Shown in pieces: positions 2,285-24,320 of a stretch of DNA of 63,989 bases. Within the stretch, counting starts at the first letter, position 1. The number at the start of each line of letters is the position of its first letter. Origin of the DNA: a virus; IMG/VR virus record IMGVR_UViG_3300034198_019066, positions 1 to 63,989 of that record. One strand, written 5' to 3'. The notes beneath the pieces are model-generated. The model saw only the letters and a list, made by a program, of their open reading frames with translations, had not been told where the DNA came from and did no database searches. Made by a program: the position numbers and the translations under genes.

Positions 2285-3901
2285 ATGAGTGAATTAGTTC
2301 AAGATACAGCAGACAGATTAACAGCGTTTATCTCGCAAAACTACAGTAATGCAGATACCGCCCCAGGATCTGTTATTAGTGAGTTGGTTGTAAAGCTGGC
2401 TGCTTCATTACAAAATCAGCAATACAACAAGATCACCACACTATCTCAAGGAGAAGCCATTAGTCAGGCATTAAATAGTTCTACAGATACATATAATAGT
2501 CAGATAGACTTAATTGCCTCTAATTATAATACTGTAAGAAACCAGGGAACGCACTCCACAGGAAGTGTTCAGGTATATGTTTCTACTCAGAACAGTTATT
2601 CTATTTCTGCTTCTTTTCAATTTATACAACCAGTATTAGGGCTTACATACCAAGTTACAGGAGCTTTTAGGGTTTCTCCTAATCCTAATCCTGTTTTAAA
2701 AGAACTTCAGTTATTTTCAGAGGGCAATCAATATTACTTTATTCTTCCTGTTATAGCTACAGGCGTAGGCTATTCTTACCAGTTATCTTCTGGTACATCT
2801 TTAGCTGTACATGCCCCTAGCTCTATAAGTGGATTTATATCCGCCAAGGCCTATGGTAATTTCACATCAGCCTTACCACTAGAAACAGATAAACAACTTA
2901 TTGCTAAGTTTAAAAAAACATTAGGTAGTACAAGGTTTGAATCTCCAGCTGGTATAGCCAATAGACTATCGGCTAGTTATCCTACGTTTCAGTCACTATC
3001 AGTATGCGGAGCCAACGACATAGAGATGACTAGATCAAAGCAAAATGCTTTAGGTATATCTACGTTTGGAATGGCGGATGTGTATATCAGAAATTCTGTA
3101 GGGCCTGAAACATACACATCTGTAGTCACAGGCACAAAAACAGCTTCTGGTGTTTGGCAGTTAAACTTGGATAGTACAAATTATTGTGCAGGGTTTTATA
3201 ATATCTCTTCTATTATACCTAATACCACAGTATTAACAGGAGGTACATTACCTATCACAAATGTATCTTACGGTTATAGAACGTTCATGGGGCAAATAAA
3301 CAATGTGATAACCGGAGCTAATGATGCTAGGTTTTCTAATTACCAAACAGCTGTGGTCACTTTCACATATAACGAAGTGCCTGTTGTGGACGTAGGTTCA
3401 ACGGCTCAGTTCATTGTAACTGCAAATTACCAGCCTAGTATCGGAGATATCCAAAATCTAATGCTCTCTAGTGACGAGAGGTTAGCTTGTGCAGACTATT
3501 TGGTTAAAGCAGCTCTTCCATGCTTTGTATCTTTGAATATCCCGCTGGTTGCTAATAATCCGAATGATACTTTCGCGTCCTTAAGCCTTAATAACCTCAA
3601 GCAGGACATTTTTAATTACATAAACACTATACCGTTTGGAGAAAATGTGTATGCCTCTAAAATTATCACATTGTGTCATAACTACAATATCTCTAGAGTT
3701 GAACTACCTATAACTCTTACAGGAGATATTCTATGTAATGATGGGTCTACTCTTACTATCACAGACAACGACAAACTACAGATCCCTACAAACAGCGCAT
3801 TAGGTGTATCTCCCAAAACTACACAATTTTTTGTAAACTACTATAATACCAATTCAAGCACTGGAAATGTGATTGATAACATAGGTATTCAATTACTCTA
3901 A
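2285..3901 (+). CDS. Baseplate J-like wedge protein (gpJ/gp6-like)
   Basis: 538 aa. The N-terminus (LTAFISQNYSNADTAPGSVISELV) matches the start of gpJ-like proteins, which has a PGS/T-x-x-x-E-L helix. The central LPLETDKQLIAKFKKTLGS segment matches the family's E-(T/S)-D-(E/K)-x-L-x-x-R/K helix that follows the beta domain. These proteins form the wedge ring of contractile-tail baseplates. The stop codon TAA overlaps the next start (TAATG). Confidence is good for the family; exact stoichiometry or position in the baseplate cannot be seen. Confidence 0.68.
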   Translation: MSELVQDTADRLTAFISQNYSNADTAPGSVISELVVKLAASLQNQQYNKITTLSQGEAISQALNSSTDTYNSQIDLIASNYNTVRNQGTHSTGSVQVYVSTQNSYSISASFQFIQPVLGLTYQVTGAFRVSPNPNPVLKELQLFSEGNQYYFILPVIATGVGYSYQLSSGTSLAVHAPSSISGFISAKAYGNFTSALPLETDKQLIAKFKKTLGSTRFESPAGIANRLSASYPTFQSLSVCGANDIEMTRSKQNALGISTFGMADVYIRNSVGPETYTSVVTGTKTASGVWQLNLDSTNYCAGFYNISSIIPNTTVLTGGTLPITNVSYGYRTFMGQINNVITGANDARFSNYQTAVVTFTYNEVPVVDVGSTAQFIVTANYQPSIGDIQNLMLSSDERLACADYLVKAALPCFVSLNIPLVANNPNDTFASLSLNNLKQDIFNYINTIPFGENVYASKIITLCHNYNISRVELPITLTGDILCNDGSTLTITDNDKLQIPTNSALGVSPKTTQFFVNYYNTNSSTGNVIDNIGIQLL

Positions 3902-5724
3902 TGGACTTTGGATTTTTATCTAGTCAATACCCAGCTAATGACTACACCAATAGCAACAATGTGCTGGTGTCGTTGGGTTCTTTTTGGACACAGGTATTTC
4001 AAGAGCAAGGAACGCTAAGAGGATATACTTTGGGTATGGCTGAAGAGCTTATCCAAAGCTATATAACTCTTGTAGAAACACTAAATAGTTATTCAATAAA
4101 GGACATACCGGTTTTTGCTACCACAAAATGGCAGCCGATTATAATCAAAAAATCTCAGTTCAGCCAGGTACCCTTTAAGTTCCAAACCAATTCCGCAGTG
4201 TTTGGCGCTCAACCTGGGAGTGATAGATTTTACGCTGGTAAAGTTTTTCAATTCGGAAAACCAGAAAGCCCTACCGCTAATGTTTATAGTGCAACCCCAT
4301 CAGTACCCTTAAGGAAATTTTCAGTGATTGCAGATAGAATAATTTCTCCATCATTCATAGCAGTGAATGGTGTGCATGTAACCACAGACCAAGCCTATAA
4401 CCTATATTTTAACTCAGATATTTTCAATAACAGCAATATTCCCAGAGCGTCTATCATATCTGATAACGGCTCTCCTTCAACATACACAAACGCAGAAGGA
4501 GATGTGGTTAATGACGAGTTAATGATTTTATGGTGTTATAATGCAGAGAATGACGCAGAATATATCTATGATAACTTTGGTAGGTTATTCGAGTTCAAAC
4601 TACCCTCTAGCGAAGTGTATAAAGGGATGCTTGAGGCGATATTTAACCTTTTTGTTTCAGGTGCTACAGTTAATGCAATAAAATCAATTATGGCGGCATT
4701 CAACGGTATAACCCCGGTTAAAAACACTGTTGAAACCATACAAGAGATATACAGAGACAACTTGTTTCAATACGTTGTTACAGATAAAGAAGTATATAGA
4801 TTCCAGACCTATCAGCAACTCGTATCTATAAACGCAGGAGACCAGGTATACGGAGGAGATATTCTTATAAACGCTGTTGAATACTATGACGCAGTTGTAT
4901 CTAACGATTGGTGGAAATCAGCTATATCAACTCCAAAACTAGGGTTGTCTTCTCAAATATTTTTAGGAAATTACAAACACCAGCTGTTTTTTTCAACAAC
5001 CGCCGAGTTAGTTACCCTGTCCCTGGATGGTAATATAAATTTTCCTGTTTTGGGTGAGCCTGCGGACGTAGAGGAATTCAATAGACAATTGAACCATCCT
5101 GAGAACAAACAAGCAGCTATTGTTGCATTGGGATTAAAGAATCCAGGAAGTGCGGTGGTTATAAATCCAGTAGATTTTCTGTTTAACAACTTTTTCAAAA
5201 ACAATACCGCATTACTTAAGTTTAATTTCTACAGCGAAGAGGAATTGGCTACTTTCTTTAGCTATTTTCCTATGATGAAGCAATACCTGCCTTCTCATGT
5301 ATATGTGCTCCTTTATGTTAATCTCAACATCCCTTCTGAAGAATACGCTAGAATGAATAGCAGGTATAGCTTACCAAATTTCCCAAATACTCCGCTTAGT
5401 ATAGATGGATCCTCTTCTAACGGGCTAAGAATTCAAGCTTATCCAACAGACCCAGACTATTATAAAAACTATAGAGATAGGTTATTTTGTATTAGCGAAT
5501 CTCCAAAAGCTTCCGACAATAACCCGCTTTTTTATACAGAAAATTTAGATCAGCTCACGATAGGGGAGCCTAATATTGGTCAATTTTTTAATATAAATGT
5601 TGGTAAAATTTTTACAGACATTCCTATCAGCAACCCTCCCCCAACAAACAGAGATGTTCCTACAATACTGTTTATTGATTTTAATTCTTCTCCAGGTGAA
5701 ATAATATCTGTAACTCCTTTATAA
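3901..5724 (+). CDS. Large baseplate/tail structural protein
   Basis: 607 aa, one base overlapping the gpJ-like stop. No signature motif is certain. The N-terminal helix MAEELIQSYITLVETLNSY and the position directly after gpJ suggest the place held by gpI or gp7-like wedge proteins in other contractile-tail phages, though the protein is much larger than gpI. The sequence is rich in Asn, Tyr and Phe and alternates short beta segments, typical of tail proteins. No transmembrane segment or enzyme motif. It ends the first block of the tail operon; a 105-base gap with a promoter-like element follows. Confidence 0.6.
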   Translation: MDFGFLSSQYPANDYTNSNNVLVSLGSFWTQVFQEQGTLRGYTLGMAEELIQSYITLVETLNSYSIKDIPVFATTKWQPIIIKKSQFSQVPFKFQTNSAVFGAQPGSDRFYAGKVFQFGKPESPTANVYSATPSVPLRKFSVIADRIISPSFIAVNGVHVTTDQAYNLYFNSDIFNNSNIPRASIISDNGSPSTYTNAEGDVVNDELMILWCYNAENDAEYIYDNFGRLFEFKLPSSEVYKGMLEAIFNLFVSGATVNAIKSIMAAFNGITPVKNTVETIQEIYRDNLFQYVVTDKEVYRFQTYQQLVSINAGDQVYGGDILINAVEYYDAVVSNDWWKSAISTPKLGLSSQIFLGNYKHQLFFSTTAELVTLSLDGNINFPVLGEPADVEEFNRQLNHPENKQAAIVALGLKNPGSAVVINPVDFLFNNFFKNNTALLKFNFYSEEELATFFSYFPMMKQYLPSHVYVLLYVNLNIPSEEYARMNSRYSLPNFPNTPLSIDGSSSNGLRIQAYPTDPDYYKNYRDRLFCISESPKASDNNPLFYTENLDQLTIGEPNIGQFFNINVGKIFTDIPISNPPPTNRDVPTILFIDFNSSPGEIISVTPL

Positions 5725-5790
5725 AATTTCTAGCCTAGATACTGCATTATTGACTTTCCCTGCCGCAAAATATCCAATAGAGTTTATTAA

Positions 5791-5818
5791 TAGACTTTTG
5801 CTAACCTTAACGTATAAT
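5791..5818 (+). promoter_or_regulatory. Promoter-like element before tail gene block 2
   Basis: TAGACT at 5791-5796 and a perfect TATAAT at 5813-5818, with 16 bases between. The start codon of the next gene lies only 11 bases after the -10 box, so transcripts would have a leader of about five bases. The 105-base gap is the only sizeable spacer within the 20-kb tail cluster, which supports a real promoter. Confidence 0.45.
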
Positions 5819-5829
5819 TATAGAGAAAT

Positions 5830-6399
5830 ATGGGCTCATTAGAAAAAAACAATTTAAACAAGTCAATTTCAGGCTTTATCAAGGTTTGGAAGTCTTGCCC
5901 TGTCTCAGGAAAATCAGAATTAATAATAGAGCAGCCTAATCTTGTTCTCTACGGAGGAGCTTCATTAATGGCTTATTCACTAGCAAGCAAGCCTAATTCA
6001 GGAATATGGGGCATGTACATAGGGTACAACAACAATCAGACCTTTGTTCCTCCTACTATTGATGTATCATACTCTCAACCCTTTTCAAGTTTTAGCGCTG
6101 ATCGAGGTTTTGGTTATTTGAGAGAACCTCTTACGTTTACTCCTAATTATCTCTCTGACGCAGGATATAAAGATAATACTGTATTATTCAGTACGATGAT
6201 CACTTCTTCAACTGCTGCTGGCGGTGCTCCCTTCCTAGACGGCATTAGCAATATCTATGAAGTAGCTCTTGTGGGGGCTCCTGACCCCCCCAATAGCAAC
6301 AAGGATATTGTATTTTCAAGAACAGGATTTAATACTGTTCGATATGATAATACTTTCAATTTCACTATCACTTGGGGAATTAAATTCCTCGTAGATTAA
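5830..6399 (+). CDS. Tail-associated structural protein
   Basis: 189 aa, no recognised family. Composition (Asn, Ser, Tyr, Gly rich; beta-prone; ends FTITWGIKFLVD) is that of phage tail surface or baseplate-adaptor proteins. The start chosen (ATG at 5830) follows the TATAAT element and has no Shine-Dalgarno sequence. It is first in a block of tail-surface genes that continues to 20940. Confidence 0.55.
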   Translation: MGSLEKNNLNKSISGFIKVWKSCPVSGKSELIIEQPNLVLYGGASLMAYSLASKPNSGIWGMYIGYNNNQTFVPPTIDVSYSQPFSSFSADRGFGYLREPLTFTPNYLSDAGYKDNTVLFSTMITSSTAAGGAPFLDGISNIYEVALVGAPDPPNSNKDIVFSRTGFNTVRYDNTFNFTITWGIKFLVD

Positions 6400-6404
6400 T
6401 CATT

Positions 6405-8522
6405 ATGTCTGTAACTCCCTGGGTACCAACCGTAAAACTAATTCAAGACGGTCAAGCTGTAGAGCAGGCTGTAGTGAATGTTCCTTTAGAGCAGCTGATC
6501 CAGCGTGACCAGCACCTATACGACGAGTTTGCTGAACTACAGGGTAAATCTGTATTAATCAGCTTTGGTACCCCTATTTATCCTGGAGATTTAGTAGGTG
6601 ATAACCCTATTCAACCAGGAGAACTAAGTGTTGTATATTATAGAAAAGATAATTCTGGTGAGGGTATGTCTAGAGCACAAACAGGATTTTCTTCTTCTAA
6701 CACGTCCAGTATGTTTGCTCCTAATGATTCAAACTACGTTTTTGGTATTATTAAATCAGTTAATCCAGATAATTCTGTAGATTGTTTTATTTCTGGTATT
6801 TGTGAGCTATCTGTACCTATTGATGATCCAATAAATGGGTTATTGGAGGTATCCAGAGATACTAATGGTAATCCTGTGAGTGAGGCCTTTAGGGTAGGGC
6901 CATATTATCTTTCCCGTAAACTTCCAGGCAAATTAACAGCTAATCCCGACGGTATCCCTGTTTATGTGGGTTATGCTATATCTTCTACGGTATTCTTGCT
7001 TCAGCCTTCGGTAGATGAGTTTTCTCAGTTCTTTATTAATTACAGATATAATATTTTAGACCGACCTGTTTATCCTCCTGTATTGAGTCAAGACGGTAGA
7101 ACTTGGAGCATCCCTACACCTGTCGGGCATTTGCATAACCCTGATAGGTTAGGGTGGATTGCTGCTACCCCAGAAAATCTTCCAGGTTATACAATCCCAG
7201 TTAGTCCAGCAGGTGTTACAGCTAAGTTTTTTTATTATATACCTAGAAGTTTAAACACTGTTAGCCCTGACAGAAATGTTTTAACCAGTGACGAAATAAT
7301 AGAAGCCACTGAATTAGGTAGCCTTCTGCCTCCTGTACCTTCCAATTTCGTAGAGATTATGTCGAACGGCGTTGTGCAGAGATATGCTGACGTGTACGCT
7401 CCAGATGGCATCTATTCTATAGATGATTATGGTATCTGGTGGTATGCAGACCAAGCAGGATTACAACCTTGGGCAGACGACATTCTTTCTCAAGGTCCTT
7501 GGGATCCTACACAATGGGAAAGCTACAAGGGCAGTAATTTCCGTAGATCAAGACTGTTTATTTCTTTTGCTAAGTTCAATCCCGCTCTTCGTACTCAGTT
7601 GGTAAGCTCATTAAGGCCTTTTGGAGCTAGTAGCAATTTTGTTTCTTTTTATCTAAAAGACAATCCTGATGTGTCTTCTCCTACAGGAGATTTACTTGTA
7701 AAGATAACCCCACAATTTATACCTGCCGGAGAAACACCGGCTTTAACTGTAGGAGCATCAATACCTACTGGTATTCCTGGCACAGTATCAAACAATCAGT
7801 ATACCACAAATGATAATTATACAGCAGGAAGTGCTGTAGCCGATCTTAAGTACGATGAGAACTTAGGAAAGTTTGTTAAGGTTGTTACTCCTGTGGTAGC
7901 AAAGCTAACAGGTGGTGGAGGTATTAGTATTACTCCTGTGGATGGGCACCCTGGCAGCTATAACATCTCATATCTGACTAATGGTGTTTATGGCTTGGTT
8001 GACTCTATAGAACCTTTAAACGCCAGACTTGAATTTAGAGGTTTAAATTCATACATCAGACTGCCATATAGCAACCCTGTTACTATACCTTATGGTTTAA
8101 TAGGTAAGGTTGTATTAACAAAGAATGCTATAAACAATGTACCATTAAACTTAGTGTTTCAGGTGTTTGGAAACCAAGCATATACTTCTGGCAACACAAA
8201 TACTAAGTTAACTTTTAGGTTCGAGTATTCAGCTACCTCAGCCCAGAATGGTGCGGCACCAGGATCTCAAAAGGCAATAAACAACCTTGTAAGCCTTGCA
8301 TCCGCCGGTTCTCAAACAATCACATTGAACATGCCCACATCTGGAGGTTACACAGCGTACACCCCAATCAACCTTGAGGGGGTTTTAACAGTGCCCGCAG
8401 AATATGTGGCAGAAGATACAGTGATTAACTTTAAAGTAGTAAGAAATCTCTCCGGTGCTGGGAATGATTATACAGGTGATATAGGTATTCTTGGCATTTA
8501 TTGGGGTGTAACCAACACATAA
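6405..8522 (+). CDS. Large tail protein, possible fibre or tail-spike component
   Basis: 705 aa. The N-terminal third is compact and Pro/Val rich, with a segment SVLISFGTPIYPGDLVGDNP near residues 50-70. The C-terminal part contains a Gly-rich linker (KLTGGGGISITPV, about residue 500), then a predicted beta-sandwich. This layout of an N-terminal attachment portion, linker and C-terminal beta domain is common in tail fibres. No catalytic motif is visible. Stop TAA lies two bases before the next ATG. Function is inferred from position and composition only. Confidence 0.55.
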   Translation: MSVTPWVPTVKLIQDGQAVEQAVVNVPLEQLIQRDQHLYDEFAELQGKSVLISFGTPIYPGDLVGDNPIQPGELSVVYYRKDNSGEGMSRAQTGFSSSNTSSMFAPNDSNYVFGIIKSVNPDNSVDCFISGICELSVPIDDPINGLLEVSRDTNGNPVSEAFRVGPYYLSRKLPGKLTANPDGIPVYVGYAISSTVFLLQPSVDEFSQFFINYRYNILDRPVYPPVLSQDGRTWSIPTPVGHLHNPDRLGWIAATPENLPGYTIPVSPAGVTAKFFYYIPRSLNTVSPDRNVLTSDEIIEATELGSLLPPVPSNFVEIMSNGVVQRYADVYAPDGIYSIDDYGIWWYADQAGLQPWADDILSQGPWDPTQWESYKGSNFRRSRLFISFAKFNPALRTQLVSSLRPFGASSNFVSFYLKDNPDVSSPTGDLLVKITPQFIPAGETPALTVGASIPTGIPGTVSNNQYTTNDNYTAGSAVADLKYDENLGKFVKVVTPVVAKLTGGGGISITPVDGHPGSYNISYLTNGVYGLVDSIEPLNARLEFRGLNSYIRLPYSNPVTIPYGLIGKVVLTKNAINNVPLNLVFQVFGNQAYTSGNTNTKLTFRFEYSATSAQNGAAPGSQKAINNLVSLASAGSQTITLNMPTSGGYTAYTPINLEGVLTVPAEYVAEDTVINFKVVRNLSGAGNDYTGDIGILGIYWGVTNT

Positions 8523-21929: not shown

Positions 21930-22515
21930 TAGATTTTAGGATTGGGATCTGTGTGTCCGCTAATTAGTCAAAGGTCCACGACTGATATTGTTGGTCCTAG
22001 TAAGCCGGGATGCGCATCCGTTGCCTTACTCAGCGCCCGATAGCAAACGGGCACACAGATCCTCTCCTTGAACTCGTCTATGCGAGTATAAATAGCCAAC
22101 TAGGCATAGAGCGTCCTGGACTAATGTCCGGGGGATTGGGCGCAGCAAGGGCAGACTATCGAGGTCTGCTAAAAGGTAAAGTGGTAATGACCCACAAGAT
22201 GACAATCTCACTGGTGACTGCAAGAAGCCGTGAACAAACCATCCGCCTCGCTATATGACTTGCAGGTATTATAGCAGGAACGCGCCCGCTATTTTAGAGA
22301 TGCCGAAAGGAGAAGCATACATCAAGTATTAATATAAATACTTTCGAGCATCTCGCTTTTTAAAATCAGTGAGTAGAGCGTAGGGAGATCCTACGACACG
22401 ATCTATAATAAGCTGGCAACCCTAGTGCTGGTACGGTTTGTTATATGTTTGGTGATGATCACACTAGATTTTAAAGTTGTAATAGTGCAGGGATACTAGT
22501 ATTATTTTTTAACCT
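21930..22515 (+). ncRNA. Large structured RNA, about 0.6 kb, unidentified
   Basis: No credible protein gene, but many strong helices. An 11-bp perfect stem pairs 21945-21955 with 22052-22062 and encloses a multi-branched domain. Others are 22072-22076 with 22083-22087; CCTGGAC/GTCCGGG near 22113-22131; GCAGAC/GTCTGC at 22151-22169; CTGCAAG/CTTGCAG closing about 22219-22265; GAGATGC/GCATCTC enclosing AAGTATT/AATACTT about 22296-22353; and CGTAGG/CCTACG near 22379-22394. A promoter-like TATAAT lies at 21802. Size, dense branching and position beside tmRNA and tRNA genes in a phage recall the ROOL and GOLLD ornate RNA classes. I cannot confirm the class. Exact ends are uncertain. Confidence 0.6.
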
Positions 22516-22612
22516 TTGGGGGCGTACTGGATTCGACATTAAGTTTGGATTCTGTGCCTACATGCCGAGGATTTCAGTTGGCCTCGTTAATCATCTGATA
22601 CAAAAAACAAAG

Positions 22613-22708
22613 GACAACTCTAACGAGATCCTTGCTCCTAGCCTCGCTGAGGCAGACGCCATTCTTGCAAAGTTTGGCTATGCTGATTCCGAGCTTCTCG
22701 CTGCCTAA
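22613..22708 (+). other. tmRNA tag-peptide reading frame
   Basis: The frame ends in GAG CTT CTC GCT GCC TAA, giving ELLAA, the hydrophobic Ala-Ala end that proteases recognise in tmRNA tags. Aligning PK1 with E. coli places the resume codon about 13 bases after the second PK1 helix, at GAC 22613. The tag would then be 31 residues, beginning DNSNEILAP and ending DSELLAA. That is near the long end of known tags (E. coli has 10). The exact resume codon could be off by one or two codons. Confidence 0.65.
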
Positions 22709-22935
22709 CCGCAGCGGCTTGAAGCCGCTAGTAGCTAACACGCTCCCTGGACGCCCGATGCCTAGGAGATACAAAAGGGTACCTCAATTATCTTGTGAGG
22801 GTATAATTTAGATACGACTCAATTCGCGTTAAGTTGAAGATCCACGGTATCCGCTCAGCGGACTGATACCTGTGTAATAGGCTGAGCTAAGCATGTAAAC
22901 GGCTGGATGAAAAGCGTAATGGACAGGGGTTCGAT

Positions 22936-23589
22936 TCACATAAAGAGTCGCCTGGATAAGCAATTATCCAGTGAAAAAACCGCTCAAACGGCGAAAGCTT
23001 CCAGGTAATGCTGATGCTAACACCGTCTGGTGAATCCGAAAGGAATAAGCTAGCTAGAGACTCATAGGAACCTAAAGTGCGAAAGCACTATGGTTTACTA
23101 GGATGGAAAAAATCATATTCAAAGGCAACTTTGAGGTCAGACATTTCTTTTGTGTATTTACCATTTCTTGGTGTACATTTAGAATACGCTTCTGAAATTA
23201 ATTTTGCCCTATAAGCCTTTTCAGGTACAAGTAAAAGATCTTTCAGGTTTGAGCAGAGTTTAACTACTCTTCCTCTGGGACATCTCCAACTATATGCCTG
23301 TTTATGGTGAACCTTATATACTTTATGCTTACAGATACATCCTCCATAGGTTGTTTTAAGAGCTGCGAGTATTTCAAGGGAAGTACTACTGACTGAAATT
23401 ATTGGAGCGCGCCATTTATCTTTTTTATTATCATAACTAAGAGTAATGGTTCCTTCTCCATCAATAAGGCCAGCAGTATATTGGATAGATAATTTCATAA
23501 ATGCGGTTTTTCTTGGATACGGTTAAAACACAACCATACTCCAAGAAAAAGGAATAGTCCAGACAAGAATGAAAATTCTTGAAAATCTG
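22936..23589 (+). mobile_element. Group I intron in the tmRNA T-loop
   Basis: The 5' exon ends in U (22935) and the intron ends in G (23589), as group I splicing needs. Visible parts are a P2-like hairpin CTGGATAA/TTATCCAG near 22952-22972; the R-type motif CTAGAGACTCATAGG near 23054; a P8 pair ATGGTTT with AACCAT flanking the endonuclease gene; the S-type motif GGAATAGTCCAGAC near 23551-23564; and a P9 hairpin CAAGAAT/ATTCTTG just after. The AGACT/AGTCC pair would form P7. Insertion at the T-loop matches the known tmRNA intron site. The homing gene sits in the P8 loop. Confidence 0.88.
23088..23498 (-). CDS. LAGLIDADG homing endonuclease, antisense inside the tmRNA intron
   Basis: 136 aa. 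Residues 9-18 (AGLIDGEGTI) are a clear LAGLIDADG motif. Only one is present, so the enzyme should act as a homodimer. A later segment with CPRGRVVKLCSNLKDLLLVPEKA fits the single-motif LAGLIDADG core. It lies opposite to the tmRNA and intron. The antisense orientation means it must be expressed from its own promoter and not from the tmRNA transcript. It would cut intronless tmRNA genes and so spread the intron. Confidence 0.85.
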   Translation of the reverse strand: MKLSIQYTAGLIDGEGTITLSYDNKKDKWRAPIISVSSTSLEILAALKTTYGGCICKHKVYKVHHKQAYSWRCPRGRVVKLCSNLKDLLLVPEKAYRAKLISEAYSKCTPRNGKYTKEMSDLKVAFEYDFFHPSKP

Positions 23590-23610
23590 TCCCCTCGCCT
23601 CCACCATTTT

Positions 23611-24010
23611 GACTGTAGAGAAGATTCCGAGGTAATGCTCGGTCGTGGGTAACATCGCCTAAAGCCATAGGCCTCTATAGTCATTGGGGAAAACTCAACA
23701 CCCCTGAATAGCAGAGTTGACAGGGGGGAGAGAACCTCTAGCCAGATACGGGACAGTGTATCCGGGCAGTCTAGGCTGCCAACAATTTTAAAGTTGTCGA
23801 ACCCCAGCACTCTTGTCTAATACCATGGACTGAGAGCTACTTTATCCGGTGAAAATCCCATTGCGATTAGCTGGCAGCAAATTAGAGCTGATCCAGTGTG
23901 TCAGAAGAATCCGTAGACCTCGACGTTTTGGGCGAAAAGGTCAAACAATTTCCCCCCCGAAACATTAGATATAAAAACCACTATGAGAAGCAGGGCATTG
24001 CGCCCTGTGT
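23611..24010 (+). ncRNA. Hairpin-rich sequence downstream of tmRNA, possible further RNA(s)
   Basis: This gene-free stretch has strong pairings. A 10-bp stem at 23611-23620 with 23673-23682 encloses CGAG/CTCG and GCCT/AGGC hairpins. CCCCTG/CAGGGG spans 23701-23726, with an alternative CTCAAC/GTTGA pairing that could form a pseudoknot. GGCAG/CTGCC spans 23765-23780, and CAGGGC/GCCCTG spans 23991-24007. No tRNA or named RNA is recognised. It could be processed from the same transcript as tmRNA. From 24011 to 24320 I see nothing firm. Confidence 0.4.
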
Positions 24011-24320
24011 ATAGGTGGAAATCCCGTGGATAACAGATACATCCTCTTCTGATTGTACAGGTGACATAGGAAGAACAAAGGAACTCAACAATCTGGGAGC
24101 TCTAATGATTTCGGGGTATTTTTGGTAGTGCATTTTATCGGTTATAGCACTTATGTTGCAACCGTCTGTGGCCGCGAGATATTTATCTTTCCCGCCCAAA
24201 AAAATAACAGACTGCTTTGTTCTACGAGTCCAAATCCAAAAAGCAAAGCTATGCTATAAAGCAACAACCATTTATACACACTGACCCAGCAGTGTTCGAC
24301 ACAATCCTGGGAAACTTTTA

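Follow-up and report, generated by a model that had tools for sequence, protein, structure and literature searches.

A phage tmRNA gene split in its T-loop by a group I intron that holds an antisense LAGLIDADG endonuclease gene

Introduction

What interrupts the tmRNA gene (ssrA) of a tailed phage in the middle of its T-arm, and could an RNA broken at this place still become a working tmRNA? The question is raised by a window of 63,989 bases, the full length of a phage record that codes for a baseplate wedge, the terminase large subunit, DNA polymerase A, a UvsX-like recombinase and SbcC/SbcD. The original prediction, made from the letters of the window, was that the phage carries a tmRNA interrupted in its T-loop by a group I intron, and this is upheld by the tmRNA covariance model RF00023, by joining of the exons, by an intron model (R1) and by covariation, as well as by the tailed-phage character of the record.

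Neither tmRNA introns nor LAGLIDADG genes within them are new. The first tmRNA intron was reportedly described in 2002, in Clostridium botulinum. A 2025 survey counts 883 unique intron sequences from 21 bacterial phyla, far beyond the "few" cases that the original prediction allowed for; they occupy four T-loop subsites, and 36 of them have endonuclease genes, most of which lie in the P7.1 region (PMC11915505). Phage-borne tmRNAs are known from Bxz1-group mycobacteriophages, from phage G and, as a two-piece tmRNA, from Melnitz (PMC4131195, PMC9004378); like that of the window they are complete phage ssrA genes, and the accessible parts of these sources describe no intron form. In the literature searched, we found no phage-borne intron tmRNA, although phage cases that go unmentioned in the 2025 survey may be present in its database (PMC11915505). 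The same search turned up no prokaryotic group I intron with an endonuclease gene in antisense and no free-standing endonuclease family at ssrA.

Results

The exons form a complete tmRNA

RF00023 matched positions 22526-22938 with 73.4 bits, above its gathering threshold of 47 (E 1.2e-26), and the match stops exactly at the T-arm break. ARAGORN found no tmRNA in the unspliced window; with 22935 joined to 23590, it reported a complete 435-nt tmRNA with a tag frame and a perfect 3' end (Table 1). The gap of 654 nt, both junctions and the 3' CCA are as originally predicted. The tag has 31 residues, ends in LLAA and occupies positions 96-191 of the spliced RNA; that of the close relative L003 is ANSNEMLAPSLAEADAILAKYGYADAELLAA, followed by a stop, and the two tags give a dN/dS of about 0.28 over few sites. 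Read from the sequence, the acceptor stem GGGGGCG/CGCCTCC has G.U as its third pair, as expected for alanine charging. The tRNA-like domain, with its alanine-type acceptor, T-arm and CCA, is complete solely once 22935 meets 23590.

Table 1. Coordinates of the split tmRNA gene, its intron and the endonuclease gene in the window
Feature	Positions	Strand	Content and basis
tmRNA 5' exon	22518-22935	+	Ends with T-stem 5' strand AGGGG and T-loop positions 1-6; RF00023, ARAGORN on joined exons
Acceptor 5' strand	22518-22524	+	Inside tmRNA 5' exon
PK1	about 22567-22599	+	Inside tmRNA 5' exon
Tag frame	22613-22708	+	DNSNEILAPSLAEADAILAKFGYADSELLAA, then stop; proteolysis signal LAA at end
P1	22932-22950	+	CGAU/UC (22932-22937) with GAGUCG (22945-22950); U.G at 5' splice site
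Group I intron	22936-23589	+	654 nt; T-loop site 7, U before, omega G last
P3 5' strand	22975-22983	+	AAAAACCGC; perfect complement of 23503-23511
P7 5' strand	23059-23062	+	GACU, guanosine-binding helix; pairs with 23556-23559
LAGLIDADG homing endonuclease gene	23088-23498	-	136 aa, 411 bp; antisense to tmRNA, inside intron
P3 3' strand	23503-23511	+	GCGGUUUUU; complement of 22975-22983
P7 3' strand	23556-23559	+	AGUC; alignment of introns
P9.0/P9	23561-23589	+	AGA 23561-23563 with UCU 23586-23588; P9 hairpin 23564-23581; omega G 23589
tmRNA 3' exon	23590-23606	+	UCCCCUCGCCUCCACCA; last T-loop base, T-stem 3' strand, acceptor 3' strand, CCA; ARAGORN on joined exons

The surroundings of the gene hold other RNA signals. 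Some 380 nt upstream of the tmRNA, at 22072-22139 (+), there is a Pistol self-cleaving ribozyme (RF02679, 59.7 bits), which the two close relatives share, at 7124-7192 (-) in L003 and at 7121-7189 (-) in L004. Directly 3' of the tmRNA, the stretch 23775-24215 (+), with its L003 counterpart at 4895-4270 (-), is poor in ORFs, about 79-83% identical at the DNA level to L003/L004 and has a folding z-score of -1.9; it has no match in Rfam and is a possible candidate for a novel structured RNA.

A group I intron at T-loop site 7

The intron junctions read UUCGAU/UCAC...AUCUG/UCCCC, with exons that rebuild the T-arm. ARAGORN alone leaves the junction unfixed, because it also accepts joins shifted by equal amounts; the group I rules of a U at -1 and a final G, as in published tmRNA introns (PMC11915505), fix it and make the originally predicted coordinates exact. 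On the contiguous window, the general group I model RF00028 reached 22.4 bits against a gathering threshold of 50, with its match out of register, because the intron is interrupted by a 411-bp gene; relatives without this insert reach 90-104 bits at the corresponding point of their tmRNAs. R1, a covariance model that covers the 5' half of the intron and was made from 24 introns of bacterial tmRNAs, with no phage sequence among them, matched the window at 22930-23067 with 91.8 bits (E 2.8e-21, about 3e-21), the runner-up place scoring 10.7 bits.

The fold was traced further in an alignment (A3) of 32 introns, with the gene loop excised from the phage copies. The share of paired cells is 94 to 100% for P1, P2, P4, P5, P6, P7 and P9.0 and 67% for P9; the U.G at the splice site and the pairing of the P7 5' strand are kept in 32 of 32 introns, and the P9.0 pairs covary, with 99% of cells paired. 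Over the whole structure, two-sided changes were seen in 255 cells compared with 101 in shuffles, none of 500 shuffles reaching as high. At P3, P7.2 and P8, near the excised gene, the alignment of relatives slips; in the window itself, P3 is a perfect 9-bp helix. Together, the R1 score and the covariation place the conserved tmRNA-intron core (P1, P2, P4-P7, P9.0 and P9) in the window. An earlier alignment (A2), in which the gene was cut at its start and stop, misplaced P3' because both ends of the gene run into conserved segments of the intron, and was replaced by A3, cut inside the loop.

An antisense endonuclease gene within the intron

The original prediction overlooked both the LAGLIDADG gene on the opposite strand of the intron and its recurrence in other phages. 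The protein carries the motif AGLIDGEG at residues 9-16 and scores 152 bits with the family HMM; PF00961, which matches 33 of 34 family members, gives it 20.8 bits, under the cut-off of 23.1. A profile search of solved structures matched variants of I-MsoI (E 7e-7) and I-CreI, and the AlphaFold model (pLDDT 93.5) has I-CreI as its best structural match (Z 12.9 over 122 residues). With Z 12.2-12.9, the model shares the single-motif homodimer-type LAGLIDADG fold of I-CreI/I-MsoI; in sequence it differs from them, at about 15% identity. I-CreI and I-MsoI target chloroplast rDNA. By its modelled fold, the intact gene appears to encode a small homodimeric endonuclease of the I-CreI type, with predicted cleavage activity.

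The gene is fitted closely to the ribozyme. Its start codon is complementary to the conserved CAU in the intron segment CAUAA (DNA CATAA), and its last codons overlap the conserved segment ACUAGGAUGG (DNA ACTAGGATGG), so that it fills the P7.1/P7.2 loop. Compared with L003, its dN/dS is 0.19, and the protein is therefore being kept by purifying selection. One alternative is that the antisense gene has a mainly regulatory role, its transcript pairing with the intron and delaying splicing until late infection; it would suit the fact that all linked phage copies are antisense, and antisense interference has been discussed for eukaryotic endonuclease genes of this orientation (PMC9548176). Selection on a protein with a predicted nuclease fold speaks against such a regulator, and a simple promoter scan, in which sites were no more frequent than in shuffles and no clear promoter for the endonuclease emerged, lends it no support; we consider it very unlikely.

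A gene broken by the endonuclease insertion, and neither spliced nor used, would be another account. The phage-group sequences, that of the window included, are all metagenomic, and in L003 the 5' tRNA-like segment is diverged and looks degraded, with a tmRNA score of 35 bits, so some tmRNA copies may be decaying. A dead gene would nevertheless hardly be expected to have exact junctions and, after joining, an intact T-arm, acceptor stem and tag, or a conserved and covarying ribozyme core; tag and endonuclease, moreover, both change more slowly at amino-acid than at silent sites. Of the explanations considered here, a dead tmRNA strikes us as the most improbable. The locus counts as a mobile element because of its antisense homing endonuclease, and we are confident that a mobile group I intron with an antisense endonuclease gene splits this phage tmRNA gene at T-loop site 7.

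The arrangement recurs in other viral contigs

An antisense endonuclease gene within the tmRNA intron is also found in L003 and L004 (84% DNA identity), L006, L007, L008, L009, L157/L203 (records of 275 and 152 kb) and L166/L211. In L043 the gene is placed after P9, and the remaining viral tmRNA introns are without this gene or have it adjoining the intron. When 18 viral intron-bearing tmRNAs were joined in silico, ARAGORN recognised a tmRNA in 16, compared with none of the 18 before joining. Site 7 dominates among the viral insertion sites; L009 and L043 use site 8, and L007 is best fitted by site 7 with C at -1. Viral endonuclease copies also stand next to intron-less tmRNAs (L013, L015, L016 and L018) and next to permuted ones (L010, L011 and L014). 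In the tree, the phage in-intron genes tend to cluster (82% of bootstraps; modest branch support of 80/63). The viral nature of the related contigs rests partly on IMG/VR, because the terminase models phrog_2, phrog_675 and PF03237 fail to match some of them. BLAST of the intron-tmRNA of the window, two further viral intron-tmRNAs and two bacterial introns against 50,697 phage records gave nothing useful: the sole match was of the L166 intron 3' end (85% over 54 bases) to four Staphylococcus phages, within the ribonucleotide reductase gene where annotated.

Several of these contigs have features of their own. In L005, the endonuclease gene lies 3' of the intron-bearing tmRNA, the tmRNA 3' end is repeated after it, and a GOLLD RNA (328 bits) adjoins the tmRNA (features at 3791-4205 (+) and 5424-6018 (-)). 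In the 212-kb record of L162 the tmRNA-intron model matches once more, at 2734-2861 (-) with 49.5 bits, roughly 0.5 kb away from the intron of the tmRNA. Large intron-tmRNA phage records encode RNA polymerase beta-like subunits (PF00562), at 122536-123618 in G001 (the 165-kb record of L003) and at 169898-171133 and 128458-129606 in G006. Downstream of position 5001 on the minus strand of L012, an apparent tmRNA consisting of the tRNA-like domain only (GGGGGCG...CGCCTCCACCA), with no tag seen by eye, adjoins the endonuclease gene and resembles that of phage DS6A.

SmpB is absent from the record of the window and from the other phage records searched, except one of 330 kb. This putatively viral record, with few recognisable genes and no match to the terminase and major-capsid models tried, contains an intron-split tmRNA (L164, 2222-2866; intron about 240 nt) and an SmpB gene (309964-310377 in G008 coordinates, 192 bits), and possibly holds a whole viral trans-translation set. 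For the window, the original prediction had ribosome rescue depend on self-splicing, which goes too far: with no SmpB in the record and a host that presumably keeps its own tmRNA, dependence on splicing would be limited to the phage copy. Activity of the intron during a lytic cycle, which the original prediction also foresaw, is likewise a prediction.

The lack of SmpB would also suit a decoy, in which intron and endonuclease move together and the phage tmRNA sequesters host SmpB or alanyl-tRNA synthetase without rescuing ribosomes. There is a precedent in the truncated tmRNA of phage DS6A, proposed as a decoy (PMC4131195, PMC11915505), and the endonuclease gene of L012 apparently adjoins a similar RNA. 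What makes a decoy unlikely for the window is that PK1 and a complete, LAA-ending tag frame are kept, both of them needless for such a role.

The endonuclease family is tied to tmRNA

The family to which the endonuclease belongs occurs almost only beside tmRNA genes. For 72 of the 80 family loci kept from bacterial genomes, a tmRNA T-arm is no more than 1 kb away, compared with 3 of 140 control windows. In 55 resolved bacterial loci the gene is just 3' of an intron-bearing ssrA, with an antisense orientation in the 34 from Bacillota and a sense orientation in the other 21, which are mainly from Proteobacteria and Nitrospirota. L127 and L136 have the gene next to an ssrA without an intron, and in L112 it lies within the intron, in sense. 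The isolated Sphingobium phage Lacusarx (NC_041927, 74324-74869) has a family gene directly upstream of, or overlapping, its annotated ssrA; this gene and its counterpart in another isolate, Gordonia phage WilliamBoone, are annotated as HNH endonucleases. Plasmids searched for the endonuclease yielded none.

Proximity might have another cause. Given that ssrA is a common integration site of islands (PMC11915505) and phages too often integrate there, the endonuclease could be a passenger that does not target tmRNA at all, and relatives do occur elsewhere: in WilliamBoone the gene (MK376956, 5979-6476) overlaps a tRNA-Ser gene, and in StenR_269 a relative lies between capsid genes. A passenger would, however, hardly account for so tight an association in bacteria, for a gene that accompanies standard, intron and permuted tmRNA forms alike or for its position within the intron in several phage lineages, and att-like copies of the tmRNA 3' end on the far side are present in only a few loci, all of which makes this reading improbable. 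Considered as a general mark of insertion, the far-side copy was clear in about 4 of 57 loci (L005, L015, L113 and L121) and was abandoned. With an antisense endonuclease of a tmRNA-tied family inside its intron, the locus of the window looks like a complete mobile element specialised for tmRNA.

Discussion

Our results suggest how this element might work. After transcription, the intron would fold and self-splice with GTP, joining UUCGAU to UCCCC, and the spliced tmRNA, its T-arm rebuilt, could be charged with alanine and would then tag stalled proteins via host SmpB. The most likely target of the endonuclease, judging from its position, is the T-arm of intron-less tmRNA genes, and repair of the cut from the phage copy would spread the intron among co-infecting phages or into the ssrA of the host. 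At the DNA level, the T-arm forms a 5-7-5 inverted repeat. Homodimeric enzymes of the I-CreI type bind pseudo-palindromes, which would explain the T-arm as the target.

Compared with the bacterial T-loop introns (PMC11915505), the intron of the window shares the host gene, subsite 7, the U at -1, omega G, the endonuclease class and the P7.1 region; it differs in being phage-borne and in having an antisense gene, the orientation of the published genes not being stated in the text of that survey. A further difference is that the endonuclease of the window has free-standing relatives beside ssrA. This recalls collaborative homing, in which free-standing endonucleases act with group I introns, as for F-CphI of cyanophage S-PM2 and the T3/T7-like cases (PMC3984707), and in which an endonuclease gene likewise stands beside an intron in its presumed target gene. 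That layout, a free-standing endonuclease plus an intron in the same gene, is seen in relatives, not in the window. What sets the present case apart is that one LAGLIDADG family, with a structural RNA as its predicted target, shows all arrangements from free-standing to intron-embedded. Antisense endonuclease genes in group I introns of a structural RNA are known from the nuclear rDNA of Didymium (I-DsqI and I-DirI type; PMC9548176), but those are His-Cys enzymes in eukaryotic rDNA, whereas the window has a LAGLIDADG enzyme in a phage tmRNA.

Taken together, these comparisons raise the broader proposal of a single endonuclease family, dedicated to the T-arm as a natural pseudo-palindrome and caught at every stage of mobile-intron assembly, with phages carrying the finished element between bacteria; we regard it as about an even bet. 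The stages would be represented by genes beside intron-less, intron-bearing and permuted ssrA and by genes fused in antisense into phage introns.

How homing endonucleases enter introns, and how collaborative pairs arise, has been called unclear (PMC10448857). With one family, a short, defined and near-universal bacterial target and all arrangements represented, the question of intron entry becomes directly testable. Phages with the finished element would help to explain the reach of tmRNA introns across 21 bacterial phyla, and their split genes would be natural cases of a phage-encoded rescue RNA that, if spliced as we infer, needs splicing before it can function.
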